A stretch of DNA of 32,885 nt from Planctomycetaceae bacterium (lineage in GTDB: Bacteria; Planctomycetota; Planctomycetia; Planctomycetales; Planctomycetaceae), in the NCBI GenBank assembly GCA_020426485.1, contig JAGQPY010000012.1:1-32885 (forward strand), written 5' to 3'. The stretch's first letter is position 1. Each line of letters begins with the position of its first letter. The notes below the pieces were generated by a model, which was not told where the DNA came from, searched no databases, and saw only the letters and a list, made by a program, of their open reading frames with translations. The position numbers were made by a program, and so were the translations under genes. This document shows, piece by piece, positions 17,496-24,842 of the stretch.

Positions 17496-20400
17496 TCATT
17501 CCTGAGCGTCGGGCTGTCGAACATCAGTTGAAGTTTGCTGCACGGTTGTCAGTTCCCTCAGGCCATACTGTTTCCGATCGTCGTTTGCCTCCACGACAGT
17601 TCCCCAGGCGGGATGTTCACCCTCTGCGAAAACGAAGTTAAGGTTCTGAGGCCGTGCGGATTCGTTCGGAAAGACGGTCGCCAGAATCTCTGATTCTTCA
17701 ACCATTCGGCGATCATCGGCATAGGCGCACAGCAGAAAGTCGATGACCTTGGCCTGGCTGGCAGTCAGCGAATATTTTCTGCTGTTCCATAGAAACCGGT
17801 AGAATTCCCCTGGCTGGAAGCGTTGATCCGCGTCGCGATGGAACCGCCAATTCGTTTCGGAGATCTGCTTCAGATTGCGTCGGGCATCGACGGTTACGAA
17901 TTCCCCGGCTTCGATTTTGATCGGGTTGCGGCCCGCTGCGTACTGTGCGTAGGCGTAGGTGCCCGTGTCGGCATCGTAGGGTACCCCAGCAATGTCGGCG
18001 TTTTTGTAGACGGTGTCCATGAGGCCTAAGAGTTTTTGGTATTCGCCCTGAGGATGGGACTTCACGTCCGGTAGCCAGCCGGCCACGGTATCAAAGACCA
18101 TCACGGTGTAGGTGCCGACCGGAAGTTTGTGTCGTCCGGGCGGAAGCACCTGCGGTCCCTTGCCGGAAATATACGGTCCCAATCCGACGACGACCACATG
18201 AGTGCCCGGATCATCTCCTTGAAGAATCAGCCCTCCACAGTCGTGGTCAGCTGGTCCCAGTGTGTCGCCGCCGTTGATAACGATCTTGGTGGGATGATGC
18301 ACCGGATCAAATCCCCACCGTCCAAGCGTATCCTGCCGCAGAAGGATGCGATGTCCCTGTACCTCAGAAGGTTGATCCGACGGGACAACAACAACAGCTG
18401 AACCATGGCCGATCGATGTCACGCTGAGCACCGGTTTGTGGAATCGCTGAGCGACAAACTGCGCAGCCGCTTCGCTCGTTTCTTTGCTCAGAACAACGTG
18501 CTTCTGAGACCTCATGAAGAACCACAGGGCGGTGATGAGACAGGCGAATGTGACCAGCAGGACTGACATTCTCCCGCCGGACGGCGAACCGCCGTTTTCT
18601 GCGAAAGTCGGCGAAGACGATCGCGGGGCAACGGTGAATCCGACGTAGACGCAGAAGAAAATCCACAGAAGGGTCAGCATCACTCCGACCTCAATCAGAC
18701 TGGAAACGTTGTCGGACGCCCCCTGACCGTCCGGAGTCAATCTCAGAATCGTGGTCCAGAAGAACGCGACAATCGCGGCACTGAATGCAGCCCCGCTCAG
18801 CAATGCCCACGGTCTGAGCGGCTTTGGCTTTCCTCGCACCAATGACATCAAACACTGCGCGGCCCAAATGGTGAACATGAATCCGGGGTATCGAATCAGT
18901 CTCGTCGTGATGCCGGACTGAGTTCCCGAATCAATAACGGAATACCCGCCTCCGATCGCCGCCATCAGGACAAGGATGGCGATGTATCCCGGCCACGGAG
19001 TTTTCAATTGCGCTGCATGAGCCTGTGGCGAAAGATTCGGTGATGCGTTTCCCGGTGATGAAGCGGGCGGACGGCTCTTTGTCTGTGTCGTCGGATGGTG
19101 TAAGTCTTTCGACTGCTGTTGAGACATCCACCACCAGATTCCCAATGGTCCCAGCAGAGTCATGCCACTAAAGCTGAACAATGCTGAAACAGGCTGGTTG
19201 CCGAAGATTTCTCCTCTGAGAAGCATACCGGGCACAATGAACGCTACGGCCGCGATGATACTGACGGCAAAGATCGTCTCGGCGTTTTGCCTTGCGATTT
19301 GTGGGGCGTTGATGACTTCAAAGCCGACCAGCAGGAACCAGGCAATCATCGAGAAAAGGATCATCGCTCCCGCACCCACAAGCCAGGTTCCGACTTTGTA
19401 ACGCGACACAGGCGCAGAAATATCAGCTTCGGTCGCGGGTTGCAGTTTGTCGCTGAGGAACAGATAGACAACGAGTCCCAGTGGTCCAAGTGCCAGAAAG
19501 AGCACAACCAGAAGGGCCTCCCTGGTCATATGGCGGCGACAAAGCAGACCGGCCATCAAAATCGGCCAACCGGCAAAAATGAACACGGTGGCGGCTTCGA
19601 CCGGGCCAATGCCAATTCCGTTCGAATTGCCGTAGACCATCAATCCGGCCATGAAGATTGCAACGACAATCATAATGCGGGCGAAGGCTCGTAATGTCTC
19701 CGGCACACGAATGTGGTTTGGTGGGACAGCGGGGCGGGCCGTCGAAATGTCGTCCGGAACTTTCGAGTGTGGCTCAGGTACCGTTTGCGACGAGACTTCC
19801 GGCAGCGAGTTCGGCACCTGTTGATTGATGACCGAATGCGAACCGGATTCCGTCGGATGCTGAATACGTTTCAGGTGTTCATCAAGGATGGCCACCACGC
19901 CTTCGGCAGTTTGAAAACGCTGTTCCGGATTTTTCTGCAGCAGGCAGTCGATGATCTCACGAAGCCATGTCGGAATTTCCGGGTTCTGGTCCGTGATCGA
20001 GCGAGGTGTATCCTGCGTGACTCGCTTGATCACATGCGCAATGCCGTCGCCACGAAACGGACTGTGGCCCGTGCACATTGCGTACATTACACATCCCAGA
20101 CTGAACAGATCGCTGCGATGATCGACTCGTTCACCGCTGGCCTGTTCCGGTGACATGTACTGAGGTGTCCCGCTGACTTCGCCGGTGCGAGTGACCGTGA
20201 TGTCGTCAATCGCACGAGCCAGACCGAAGTCGGTGATCTTGACTCGCTCCACTCCGTTTTCGAGCAAAATGTTGGCCGGCTTGATGTCTCGATGAATGAC
20301 GCCCTGCTTGTGAGCGGCCGCGAGTCCTTCCGCGATCTGGCGGCCGATTCGCAGAATTTCGGTCAGTCGCAGTGTGCCGACTCGATCCAGCTTCTGCTGC

Positions 20401-21032
20401 AGTGACTGACCGGCGACGAATTCCATGACCAGATACGGCGGAACCGGTTTGCCCTGAGCGTCTTCGTGAGAATCATCGACCGCATGAATGGTGACAACGT
20501 GCGGATGACTGATCGCAGCCGCGGCCTGCGCTTCCCGCAGAAAGCGGCGGCGTGAATTGGGATTGGCGGCCAGTTCGGGAAGCAGTGCCTTCACCGCGAC
20601 GATGCGATTCAGCTTGGGATCAACCGCCCGCAGCACAACTCCCATCCCGCCGCGTCCGATAACTTCAAGCACCTCGTACGGCCCAATCGTGCCCTTGACA
20701 CCGTCTTTGGGCGATGGTTTCAGAAAGCTGAGCGACACCTCGTCCGCTGGTCTCGGCCCACCTGCCGGAGTTTCCAGAAAACTGCCCGCGTCATCGTAGG
20801 CTCGCAGCAACGCCATGACGCGGTGACGTCGCTCGACATCACCGCCACATTCGGCTTGCAAAAAGGCATCCTGTTTCACCGTGTCGCCAATTTTCAGAGC
20901 CTGCAGGAACAGCCCTTCAATAGAGTTCGGAGAAACGGAGTGATGATGCTGGACAGATGTGAGTTCAGTTACATCAGGTGCGTCTGAATCCGGGGGTTCC
21001 GGCTTATCTGGATTGTTCGCTGCGGTGGTCAT
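17496..21032 (-). CDS. Giant membrane Ser/Thr protein kinase with C-terminal winged-helix-like domain
   Basis: The 1178-residue protein has a Hanks-type kinase domain at about 118-390: GRGGMG loop (126-131), VAVK Lys148, Glu167, HRD (247-249), DFG (268-270), SGTPQYMSPEQ activation segment; all key residues are present. A Pro/Ser linker precedes about 11 hydrophobic segments between 452 and 840, arranged as repeated blocks. The C-terminal part (about 850-1178) is soluble and beta-rich, with a PEGA-like strand region around 960-1055. It ends in a domain (about 1076-1162, bases 17547-17807) with FLWNSRKYSLTASQAKVIDFLL and HPAWGT, which resembles a winged-helix-like domain seen in planctomycete proteins. 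The start has AGGAA 8 bases upstream. It follows the ECF sigma gene by 150 bases, a common planctomycete pairing. It probably phosphorylates regulatory partners in response to an envelope or membrane signal. Confidence 0.88.
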   Translation of the reverse strand: MTTAANNPDKPEPPDSDAPDVTELTSVQHHHSVSPNSIEGLFLQALKIGDTVKQDAFLQAECGGDVERRHRVMALLRAYDDAGSFLETPAGGPRPADEVSLSFLKPSPKDGVKGTIGPYEVLEVIGRGGMGVVLRAVDPKLNRIVAVKALLPELAANPNSRRRFLREAQAAAAISHPHVVTIHAVDDSHEDAQGKPVPPYLVMEFVAGQSLQQKLDRVGTLRLTEILRIGRQIAEGLAAAHKQGVIHRDIKPANILLENGVERVKITDFGLARAIDDITVTRTGEVSGTPQYMSPEQASGERVDHRSDLFSLGCVMYAMCTGHSPFRGDGIAHVIKRVTQDTPRSITDQNPEIPTWLREIIDCLLQKNPEQRFQTAEGVVAILDEHLKRIQHPTESGSHSVINQQVPNSLPEVSSQTVPEPHSKVPDDISTARPAVPPNHIRVPETLRAFARIMIVVAIFMAGLMVYGNSNGIGIGPVEAATVFIFAGWPILMAGLLCRRHMTREALLVVLFLALGPLGLVVYLFLSDKLQPATEADISAPVSRYKVGTWLVGAGAMILFSMIAWFLLVGFEVINAPQIARQNAETIFAVSIIAAVAFIVPGMLLRGEIFGNQPVSALFSFSGMTLLGPLGIWWWMSQQQSKDLHHPTTQTKSRPPASSPGNASPNLSPQAHAAQLKTPWPGYIAILVLMAAIGGGYSVIDSGTQSGITTRLIRYPGFMFTIWAAQCLMSLVRGKPKPLRPWALLSGAAFSAAIVAFFWTTILRLTPDGQGASDNVSSLIEVGVMLTLLWIFFCVYVGFTVAPRSSSPTFAENGGSPSGGRMSVLLVTFACLITALWFFMRSQKHVVLSKETSEAAAQFVAQRFHKPVLSVTSIGHGSAVVVVPSDQPSEVQGHRILLRQDTLGRWGFDPVHHPTKIVINGGDTLGPADHDCGGLILQGDDPGTHVVVVGLGPYISGKGPQVLPPGRHKLPVGTYTVMVFDTVAGWLPDVKSHPQGEYQKLLGLMDTVYKNADIAGVPYDADTGTYAYAQYAAGRNPIKIEAGEFVTVDARRNLKQISETNWRFHRDADQRFQPGEFYRFLWNSRKYSLTASQAKVIDFLLCAYADDRRMVEESEILATVFPNESARPQNLNFVFAEGEHPAWGTVVEANDDRKQYGLRELTTVQQTSTDVRQPDAQE

Positions 21033-21182: not shown

Positions 21183-21776
21183 TCATGAGGCCTCTGAATT
21201 TCCCTGCATCCGACACAACAGCCACGCTCGAGAATATGCCCACCAGCGAGAAGCCGTGGGCCGCGAAATCCCAAGCGTCAGGGCAGCTTCCTCTTCTGAC
21301 AGCCCGGCAAAGTATCGAAGCCTTACGAGCTCGGCTTTCGGTGCATCCTCAGCCTGAAGCTCACTCAGAGCAGATTCCAGCGCAATCAGATCGACCTTGA
21401 GCCCGTGATCTTCAACAGCGATGTCAGCTTCGATCAAATCAACTTTGTGATGCTGACCACCGCGTTGAAGCTGTCGCCGCTGTCGAGCGTTGTCAACCAG
21501 AATCCGCTGCATCGCAATGGCGGCTGCACCAAAGAAGTGACGTCGATTCTGCCAGGTGACATTGCCGTCTCCCACAAGTCGCAGAAAGGCTTCGTGAACC
21601 AGCGCAGTCGGCTGCAGAGAATGTCCCGGACGTTCCTGTTTCATGTGTTCCGACGCAATTCGTCGCAGCTCATCATAGACCACCGCCATCAACTGCTGTG
21701 TTCCAGCGCGCCCGGATTCGATCTCGTTCAGAATCAGCGTCAAGTCGGTCATGTTGCAGAGGCTTTCGTTATTCAT
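21183..21776 (-). CDS. ECF-type RNA polymerase sigma factor (planctomycete ECF/kinase-linked group)
   Basis: The 197-residue sigma-70 family protein has region 2 at about 25-110 (VYDELRRIASEHMKQERPGHSLQPTALVHEAFLRL split over two helices) and region 4 at about 145-190 (RLRYFAGLSEEEAALTLGIS, then RPTASRWWAYSRAWL, the recognition helix). It matches the planctomycete/verrucomicrobial group of ECF-like factors next to Ser/Thr kinases. No anti-sigma gene is seen, so control may be by the kinase. The ATG at 21776 overlaps the stop codon of the upstream exported-protein gene (ATGAATAA, 8 bases), while ATG 21752 fits the usual family start better; neither has a good ribosome site. Confidence 0.87.
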   Translation of the reverse strand: MNNESLCNMTDLTLILNEIESGRAGTQQLMAVVYDELRRIASEHMKQERPGHSLQPTALVHEAFLRLVGDGNVTWQNRRHFFGAAAIAMQRILVDNARQRRQLQRGGQHHKVDLIEADIAVEDHGLKVDLIALESALSELQAEDAPKAELVRLRYFAGLSEEEAALTLGISRPTASRWWAYSRAWLLCRMQGNSEAS

Positions 21777-24483
21777 CCGCTGCAGGACCGCTCAACGCTT
21801 CCGCTCGGACATCCAGTGTTTTCCAGAAAACACGGACATGGCCACCGTTCCCGTGGATCTGTGCCATCAGGCGTACACCATCGATGGCCACGTCGTCGGT
21901 CGCTGCGGGCTGCTGACCGCGGAGGCGAAAATGGGGCGAATCATGCTCGGCCGTCAGATAATACATGGTGGTTCCTCGCCGCGACATGCGGAGTCGACCA
22001 CTTCGTTCGTGCATGGGTTCCATCCCGAAGTAATGCCGCCGCTCTCCATCCGGGAACTGTCGCACGGTCGCACATTGAACCACCTGTTCAGGTGCAGCGC
22101 CGGGTTTCAGAATCTGTTTCCGCGCTGTGAAGAATTCGTCTTTGGTTTCGTTGTTCAGCAGAGTGATCAAAGCGATCTGGGTGTGGCTGGTGGCGTCGGG
22201 ACTCGTTTCGAACTGGTCGTATTCGGCGATCACGTCGAAGTCTCCTTTGACGACAATCGAAGGAGCAATGGCCGCATTCTGATAGCCGCCGATCCCCATT
22301 CGGGATGCCAACAGTCCATCCGGGCGTGCGACGATATCCGTGCCCGCTGTTCCTCGCATGACTTTGAAACGATCCGCCGGCAACCCAGCGACTTGAAAGT
22401 CGTGATGAAACGTCGCCTGCAGGCGAGCTTCGTCATCTTCAGAGAATCCGTCGTATTGAATGGCCAGTTCCTGCTGATGAGTTTCCGGAAGTTTTCGCGG
22501 CCAGTTGCCCTTCCACACGATGTTTCGCACGCGTACTTCAGTTTGGTCGGAGAAGTGAAACAAACCGAATGTGCGTTGATTTCCGCTCTCAAGAGGGCGT
22601 TCGTAAATCATGACGCCGTTCAGGCGAAGCGTAACGTTGTCGTTTGTCACTGTAAGAGACAGTTGGTTCCAATCGTTGTTCATCATTGGCAACGGAGCCG
22701 GGCCGCGACGGTGCTGCGGTTCATCAAAGACATTCATGGGGCTCAGAGATGTTTGTTCATATGCACCGTCCGTGATTTGATGAATCTGCACTCCGGAAGG
22801 ATACAGCAGAAAGGCCAGCCGATCCAAAGCCGGGTGCACCAAAGTCCTGCCGGGTTCATAGAAGAACTCATATTGGATCGTACCGTCTTCCAGCATCGGA
22901 CGATGGTAACGCAACACACGTTCATCGCTTCCGACGTCTTCGGAAATAACCTTCGATCGTGCTTCCGAAGAATTCTGATGTGGAGCAGCGATGCCATCGT
23001 GGAGACCGTACAGGACCTGATTGCGCACGACCCAGTGGTCACCTTCATCTCCGATCGATTCGCCAAAGTACGGATACCAAACGCTCAGGCTGCTGTCGGC
23101 AGACAGGGAAATGCTGTCCGGAATTTCGGGCGTCCCGGAAATTCGAATATCGCGCACAATGCCGTGGTCTCGAACATTGCTGCGGATGGCAATCCAGGGA
23201 TCGATTTCTTTGGCGGTCGTTCGCGTCTGAATGGGTTCGCCGTTGAAATACGTCGTGATTTGTCTGTCGCGAACGGTCGCCCGATAGTGCGGCCAATGGC
23301 GAGCACGCGTGAGAGGTGTCGCGATGGACGTTCGAGGTGCTTGCCAGCGAAAGCTTCCCAGGTCGAAGCCGTTCTGCGCATAGATCGGTCCCAGCCACCG
23401 CCCGCCAATCATCACGGAGGAGATGCTCCACGCCGCGACAGAGACGTCGCATTCGACTTCAAAGTTGCCCTGCAGCGGAATGGCGAAATACAGGTAATCG
23501 CGGTTCATCGGGGCAACAAGTTCGCTCTGTCCCGTTCGCAGCGCCCAGCGAACATTTGGCATCCCCGGTCCGCGTACGGAATCCTGGCCACGGCTGACCG
23601 GATGCCACTGTCCGGCGACGGGCGAGTCATCGGTGACGCCGGATCCTTGGATTTGAGCAGAGTCCTGTGTATGTATCTGGTACGCCATCGCCATCACATG
23701 GCGATGCCGAACGGTCGGCTCGTAGGGTGACTTCATCCATTGATCACAACAACTCAACAGAGCAGCGGTGACTTCGCGAAGATCGGGAACCAACCATGTG
23801 CGCGACAGGAGCAGCAACAGGGCATCGTCTGGATGGAAGTCGCCAGCGGCGGCACGACTTCTGGTTTGTTGCAGCACTTGCTCCATAGATGCTGCTGCTT
23901 CAGTGAACCGTCCGGCGGCCGCGTCAATCAAGGCGAGAGCGCATCGCCGGGACGATTCGACGTTATTGGAAACTCCGCCATCTGAATGGACAGCGAGCGG
24001 TGCGTCGGCAATCTGAGCGCGAATGGTGTCCAGTTGATCGAGTTCGAGAGCCACATCGATCAGTTCCAGTATGGGTGCCATCATTTGTCCACTGCGGTTG
24101 GGCTTCGCGGAATCACTCTTTAGAAGCCACGGCGGGTGATATGGCCCCGGATCAGTTGGCGTAAAGGCCAGTGATGTTCGGATCGTCGGGCGATCTGCCG
24201 ATGGCAGAACCCACTGCGACAGATATTCAAATCGCTGTTCCGGTGGAAGACGGTCGGCATGCAGCAGCACCCCCAGAGCTTCTTCAGCGATATGCTCTTC
24301 CGCAAAGATCTCATGCAACACCCGGCGTTGGGCTGTCGGAGATTCCTCTGACAGGGTCGCGGCCAATGTGGAAACAGCGGAAAGACGGTCATCGGCAACC
24401 GCGCGGATCGGAAAGACTGACAGGCAAACACCGACAGTTGCCAGCACAGAAATGAGCGGGGCATTGCGATCAGAAATCTCCAT
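21769..24483 (-). CDS. Exported DUF1583-like protein (concanavalin-like domains)
   Basis: The 904-residue protein begins with a signal peptide (hydrophobic SVLATVGVCLSVFPIRAVA). A helical N-terminal region of about 300 residues follows. Then come beta-rich regions with LamG/concanavalin-like features: YFAIPLQGNFEVECDVSV, a repeat-like FGLFHFSDQTEVRVRNIVWKGNW, and the late strand GDFDVIAEYDQFETSPDATS. These resemble the DUF1581/DUF1583 families described in Rhodopirellula, a recollection I could not check. ATG 24483 has GAAGGA with a 6-base spacer; upstream in-frame starts are weaker. It overlaps the ECF sigma start and may be the envelope partner or product of that regulatory unit. Function is unknown. 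Confidence 0.72.
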   Translation of the reverse strand: MEISDRNAPLISVLATVGVCLSVFPIRAVADDRLSAVSTLAATLSEESPTAQRRVLHEIFAEEHIAEEALGVLLHADRLPPEQRFEYLSQWVLPSADRPTIRTSLAFTPTDPGPYHPPWLLKSDSAKPNRSGQMMAPILELIDVALELDQLDTIRAQIADAPLAVHSDGGVSNNVESSRRCALALIDAAAGRFTEAAASMEQVLQQTRSRAAAGDFHPDDALLLLLSRTWLVPDLREVTAALLSCCDQWMKSPYEPTVRHRHVMAMAYQIHTQDSAQIQGSGVTDDSPVAGQWHPVSRGQDSVRGPGMPNVRWALRTGQSELVAPMNRDYLYFAIPLQGNFEVECDVSVAAWSISSVMIGGRWLGPIYAQNGFDLGSFRWQAPRTSIATPLTRARHWPHYRATVRDRQITTYFNGEPIQTRTTAKEIDPWIAIRSNVRDHGIVRDIRISGTPEIPDSISLSADSSLSVWYPYFGESIGDEGDHWVVRNQVLYGLHDGIAAPHQNSSEARSKVISEDVGSDERVLRYHRPMLEDGTIQYEFFYEPGRTLVHPALDRLAFLLYPSGVQIHQITDGAYEQTSLSPMNVFDEPQHRRGPAPLPMMNNDWNQLSLTVTNDNVTLRLNGVMIYERPLESGNQRTFGLFHFSDQTEVRVRNIVWKGNWPRKLPETHQQELAIQYDGFSEDDEARLQATFHHDFQVAGLPADRFKVMRGTAGTDIVARPDGLLASRMGIGGYQNAAIAPSIVVKGDFDVIAEYDQFETSPDATSHTQIALITLLNNETKDEFFTARKQILKPGAAPEQVVQCATVRQFPDGERRHYFGMEPMHERSGRLRMSRRGTTMYYLTAEHDSPHFRLRGQQPAATDDVAIDGVRLMAQIHGNGGHVRVFWKTLDVRAEALSGPAADE

Positions 24484-24842
24484 CACTGGTCCTTCATTCG
24501 ACGTCAGATTGAATTGATGATCAACACTCGGAATTCCTGTTGTCAAATGGTGCACGCTATCAGGCCAGCGTCTCTTTCGGAGTGCAGAGACTCATCACCG
24601 CTTTGAAGATTCTGTGATCATCGATATTGGATGAGATCATGAACGTCGGAACCGTTTCCCGGTTCTTCCCGGCGAACTCAGGTGCGTGAGTCAGTCGGAA
24701 CGGATGAACAATTCGCAATCCGCATGACGGGAACCGGAGAATTCAAACGAAAGCGACGACAAGTCGTCGCACTCCAAAGACAGACAGGACGCTGTCCAGC
24801 TATGTCGCGGCCGGCAGCAGAAATCACGCACAAACTTCTGCA
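24484..24842. promoter_or_regulatory. Intergenic region between recG and the DUF1583-like gene
   Basis: These 359 bases hold no gene. On the minus strand they contain the candidate recG terminator (24744-24770) and presumably the promoter of the exported protein/ECF/kinase unit. The ribosome site GAAGGA (24490-24495) is at the left end. Promoter boxes are not clear. Confidence 0.45.
24744..24770 (-). terminator. Candidate terminator of recG
   Basis: GCGACGAC (24753-24760) and GTCGTCGC (24763-24770) are separated by 2 bases. Read on the minus strand, the stem (6 bp with a 6-base loop, more realistic than 8 bp with 2) is followed by TTTCGTTTG. It lies about 70 bases after the recG stop. It could instead be a protein-binding palindrome. 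Confidence 0.5.

Follow-up and report, generated by a model that had tools for sequence, protein, structure and literature searches.

The stretch of DNA that we analysed (the window; 32,885 nucleotides of contig JAGQPY010000012.1 from a Planctomycetaceae bacterium, GC 56.7%) carries a long open reading frame for a membrane-bound Ser/Thr kinase, with the gene of an ECF sigma factor upstream of it (Table 1). The G-loop, catalytic Lys, HRD and DFG of the Hanks-type Ser/Thr kinases are all present in the 1178-residue protein, and the motifs GRGGMG, AVK, HRDIKPAN, DFG and SPE are all found in residues 119–377. The complete kinase that an earlier note, made from the sequence alone, had read in this frame is borne out by the Pfam Pkinase match and by the intact catalytic motifs. 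Its count of about 11 membrane segments also agrees with ours, 11 by hydropathy reading and 10 by a topology HMM, the doubtful one lying at about residues 717–735. Beyond the membrane segments there is a tail of 337 residues. The patterns quoted from its C-terminal domain, WNSRKYSLTASQAKV and HPAWGT, are found there, and the bounds of the domain move from 17547–17807 (residues ~1076–1162) to the homology-defined residues 1071–1161 (17550–17822). A beta-rich region before this domain is plausible, but it has low confidence in a model of the whole tail. The source genome encodes dozens of paralogues of the kinase domain (58 matches), but the C-terminal domain just once.

Table 1. Features of the kinase and sigma factor genes, in positions of the window.
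Feature	Position	Strand	Basis or remark
ECF sigma factor gene (PF07638 / TIGR02999)	21183..21776	-	150 bp upstream of kinase, same strand
Sigma region 2.2 motif QPTA, residues 55–58, replacing DAED	21603..21614	-	Thr57 is the predicted phosphorylation site
Whole ORF, polytopic Hanks-type Ser/Thr kinase, 1178 aa	17496..21032	-	Open, ATG start
Kinase domain, residues 119–377, catalytic motifs complete	19902..20678	-	PF00069 E 9.5e-53
Membrane domain, residues 449–840, 10–11 hydrophobic segments	18513..19688	-	Hydropathy and topology HMM
Predicted extracytoplasmic tail, residues 842–1178	17499..18509	-	Positive-inside statistics, 25 orthologues
Beta-rich unit, residues ~931–1070	17823..18242	-	Orthologue alignments; low-confidence strands in model
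Winged-helix-like domain, residues 1071–1161	17550..17822	-	Profile E 1.1e-33; AlphaFold2 pLDDT 77.9; Foldseek

Sequence comparison shows that the C-terminal domain forms a true family, one that is missing from the libraries that we searched; the tail gave no match in Pfam, NCBIfam or the PDB sequences. A C-terminal query of 97 residues found homologues in other genera (E 2e-14 to 1e-12), and profile matches to the domain were obtained in 40 of the 170 genomes of the family Planctomycetaceae, in 18 genera, so it is not a chance pattern. When genome contigs were searched with the single domain (the query had three extra N-terminal residues, GSS) nothing was found, and a search based on an alignment gave 4 loci. 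The named public relatives are Planctomycetaceae, Planctomycetota and Gimesia MAGs, and a search of viral contigs gave one relative.

The carriers of the domain are of two classes, long kinases and short proteins. The domain-bearing planctomycete kinases of the same family number about 30, with 1–4 copies each, and are ~1100–1627 residues long where complete. In them the domain copies accompany the beta-rich unit, which has the signature ...LPxGxYxVxxxDxxxGW..., and in orthologues the two are repeated together, in tandem. The short proteins, ~150–630 residues, have a single copy, C-terminal or nearly so. Sampling across the phylum gave the kinase-length form in the window's own family only, and the shorter proteins in other families as well. 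The core residues of the domain (W, Q, F and HPAW) are kept across genera, whereas the membrane bundle is variable, with roughly 5 to 15 segments in the relatives and numbers that differ between genera. A PEGA domain seemed possible by eye in the orthologues and was rejected, as Pfam gives no PEGA match.

The soluble planctomycete proteins (e.g. L096, L099, L103) have the domain family in common with the kinase (HSPDFRSVNWFG...HPAWGTLI), but they have no kinase domain and mostly no membrane segment. There is no ECF sigma in their retrieved loci, and some adjoin integrase or DnaB genes. Such short soluble proteins, ending in the domain, are spread through the phylum (L093–L103, L108, L122–L130). 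L099 has a DnaB helicase and a phage integrase as neighbours, and on the viral contig L108 the neighbours are an integrase and an MT-A70 methylase, which suggests that some of the soluble carriers are on mobile elements. Some orthologues of the kinase (L033, L035, L036, L072–L075, L083, L088) have Met/Gly-rich inserts between the membrane and the winged-helix-like domain, with up to 8 Met per 40 residues, e.g. MMAGGMEMGGGDMGMGMF; the window protein is without them. These inserts bring to mind Met-rich copper-binding segments.

The fold of the domain had earlier been guessed to be winged-helix-like. An AlphaFold2 model, made from a shallow alignment of only seven sequences, has a pLDDT of 77.9 and a pTM of 0.68, and its elements follow the order strand-strand-helix-strand-helix-helix-strand-strand. 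The model of the whole tail shows nearly the same order, with the C-terminal domain as the sole well-predicted part. The strands and helices are ordered as in the winged-helix domains of the OmpR/AfsR type, Zur and cullin WHB. The top entries of a Foldseek search against the PDB were cullin WHB, AfsR, Zur, Oskar LOTUS, ORC2 and ArlR, which we take to be mostly winged helices; TM-scores were ~0.35–0.46 on the query and no match was individually significant (best E 0.083, none <0.001). A viral structure library gave no significant match. Since the element order and the nature of the top matches agree, it is quite likely, if not proven, that residues 1071–1161 adopt a winged-helix fold in the way the model predicts; the guess fits in these respects, but a best E-value of 0.083 falls short of securing it. 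The domain differs from OmpR/AfsR, Zur and cullin WHB in that neither sequence nor Foldseek gives a significant match to them, and in being acidic and predicted to be extracytoplasmic.

The side of the membrane on which the tail lies was approached in several ways. The topology HMM, which is approximate and has parameters that we set ourselves, gave 10 segments for the window protein alone and a probability of 0.54 for the C-terminus being outside, and its best path had the C-terminus outside in 18 of 29 orthologous sequences, the window protein included. Reading the topology from the number of hydrophobic segments alone was rejected as unreliable, since orthologues differ by duplication or loss of the GPLG unit; a loose hydropathy threshold also caught beta strands. 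This three-segment unit, ending LGPLG, is duplicated in the window protein (19125–19688, residues 449–636). It is likewise found twice in L085, and once in the closest orthologue, L078, where 8 hydrophobic segments, if all are counted, would place the tail inside provided that the GPLG segment crosses the membrane. In orthologues the LGPLG segment is often followed by positively charged linkers, so it is perhaps non-crossing, and the sequences suggest that these segments may be re-entrant.

To the positive-inside rule we put the last three membrane segments only, chosen by hand in 25 orthologues. Mean counts of Lys plus Arg were 3.4 ahead of the third-last segment and 1.0 in the loop that follows it, then 4.1 in the loop leading into the last segment and 2.1 over the 15 residues beyond. 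Such a distribution speaks for an outside C-terminus in 24 of the 25 orthologues, which are related and come from ~9 genera, and hence are not 25 independent votes. In a survey of planctomycete kinases the kinase domains were predicted to be inside and the commonest associated domains mostly outside (PMC11032199). Going by the charges, the tail (842–1178) is very probably outside the cytoplasm.

In the sigma factor, region 2.2 reads HSLQPTALVHEAF and DAED is absent. The consensus of the sigmas at this place is [QT][AP]TALVHEA, and all 23 that were aligned have the Thr of [QT][AP]TA unchanged. Of 28 kinase loci from other genomes, 22 have an ECF sigma, ~19 of them immediately upstream and three 1–2 kb away; several of the loci without one end at a contig edge. 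The source genome has only five PF07638 sigma genes (E <1e-10), each with a kinase gene directly downstream in the same orientation (contigs C33, C475, C134, C155 and C115). The two marks of an ECF sigma/Ser-Thr kinase (ECF-STK) pair, a conserved adjacency of sigma and kinase and the loss of DAED with a Thr in region 2.2, are both found here. In EcfP the motif is STTA, its Thr is the target of the kinase, and the phosphate gives the charge for binding RNA polymerase (PMC8999054, PMC8103513); the consensus of ECF43 is QTTA, and PknS phosphorylates EcfK directly (PMC13147305). Several planctomycete ECF groups are presumed to be regulated by phosphorylation (PMC8999054). By analogy, the sigma factor at this locus is probably phosphorylated at Thr57. 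On the far side of the sigma gene lies a gene for a DUF1581/DUF1583 protein (21769–24555), on the same strand and overlapping the sigma start by 8 bases; it has no homologue in the orthologous loci.

A sigma gene beside a Ser/Thr kinase gene is also the arrangement in EcfP/PknT of Vibrio parahaemolyticus and in EcfK/PknS of Xanthomonas citri, both of them pairs with an ECF43 sigma. STTA or QTTA there and QPTA here are each an uncharged replacement of DAED with Thr at the phospho-position. Unlike EcfP and EcfK, the planctomycete sigma is placed by PF07638/TIGR02999 and not by ECF group. The kinase can be likened to PknS, which spans the membrane and has a periplasmic region at its C-terminus, but it has a polytopic membrane domain and, in place of the TPR repeats of PknS, a new winged-helix-like ectodomain, and its phosphorylation of the sigma is a prediction. 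Comparable too are the planctomycete STK-linked groups ECF59, ECF61, ECF62 and ECF217, with the same phylum, gene arrangement and proposed activation by phosphorylation (PMC8999054); the papers that we read do not describe this ectodomain. The model that scores this kinase domain best is that of the PknB-type PASTA kinases (NF033483), a family with the kinase inside and repeated modules outside, from which the kinase here differs by its many membrane segments. A PASTA kinase proper (Stk1/PknB) was rejected: the score was 312.8 bits against a cutoff of 450, the match stops at residue 465 and there are no PASTA repeats. The system is of a known kind, ECF-STK, with a new and repeatable ectodomain module.

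The sequences establish how the protein is built, the family of its C-terminal domain, the conserved pairing of the genes and the motif; the action of a ligand on the kinase and of the kinase on the sigma, and the sensing role of the tail, are inferred. A signal outside the cytoplasmic membrane would act on the tail, and possibly on the membrane bundle too. The beta-rich unit and the winged-helix-like domain of the tail would together form an extracytoplasmic module that binds a protein or a ligand, and the signal would pass through the membrane bundle and switch the cytoplasmic kinase domain. The kinase would then phosphorylate the co-encoded sigma factor, most likely on Thr57 of QPTA, and the negative charge of the phosphate would stand in for the missing acidic patch of DAED, letting the sigma bind RNA polymerase and turn its regulon on. 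It appears fairly likely that the kinase is the sensor kinase of an ECF-STK pair, with its tail sensing outside. Sensor modules are often repeated in tandem, and the tandem repeats of the domain and the beta-rich unit were for this reason counted in favour of a sensor role. Counted against the sensor kinase were the HMM results (0.54 for the window protein, 18 of 29 sequences), the 8 segments of L078 and the soluble, apparently cytoplasmic relatives.

It would also be possible, though unlikely, that the winged-helix-like domain, though outside, has no more than a structural role, for example in dimerisation or envelope anchoring, and that the membrane bundle does the sensing. The bundle is far bigger than a simple anchor and its number of segments differs between genera, which suits a sensing part; it is the domain with its core residues, however, that is kept across the genera, and not the bundle.

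The earlier note had proposed direct signalling from membrane to gene, together with the adjacent sigma factor, by a C-terminal domain that binds DNA or the sigma. This calls for a cytoplasmic C-terminus, and the winged-helix-like fold, the ambiguous topology prediction for the single protein and the soluble relatives, which are probably cytoplasmic and in some cases lie beside integrase and DnaB genes, all speak for it. Nevertheless, it is improbable. A C-terminus outside the cytoplasm, which the note itself had held to be incompatible with its reading, was looked at and is favoured by the charges at the last three segments in nearly all of the orthologues. The domain copies of the kinases are acidic, with a mean net charge of -3.0 as compared to +0.2 in the soluble relatives, so DNA binding is not favoured; the copy of the window protein has a pI of ~5. 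Up to 4 copies alternating with beta-rich units also suit a sensor better than a reader of DNA. The direct membrane-to-gene role, as judged from these features, is probably wrong. The link to the sigma factor is real, but contact through the C-terminal domain is disfavoured, and phosphorylation of the sigma by the cytoplasmic kinase is the likely route. It is likely that the C-terminal domain is more a sensor than a gene-binding part. A membrane-anchored DNA-binding regulator of the CadC/ToxR type was also set aside: this type is marked by a winged helix on the cytoplasmic side, and the positive-inside statistics, an indirect measure, favour the outside.

That kinase and neighbouring sigma are not a dedicated pair, the adjacency reflecting shared expression and the sigma being regulated in another way, is highly improbable: mechanisms may be different in ECF groups outside ECF43 (PMC8999054), but the pairing is kept across genera and in all five cases in the source genome, and the acidic motif is lost with the Thr invariant.

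It is conceivable, although rather doubtful, that a winged-helix module common to soluble, partly mobile-element-linked proteins has been recruited to the outside of planctomycete receptor kinases as a receptor for macromolecules; these may be peptides or polysaccharides, or even nucleic acid outside the cell. If true, a DNA-reading fold would serve as an extracytoplasmic receptor that controls a sigma factor. DNA binding does not follow from the mere presence of a winged-helix-like tail on a membrane kinase. Signalling by phosphorylation of sigma factors was discovered recently and has been demonstrated in few bacteria, and the planctomycetes have many kinases and several sigma groups that are presumed to use it. 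The locus offers a clear sigma-kinase pair and a predicted phospho-site that can be tested, and its receptor part carries a new, repeatable domain.
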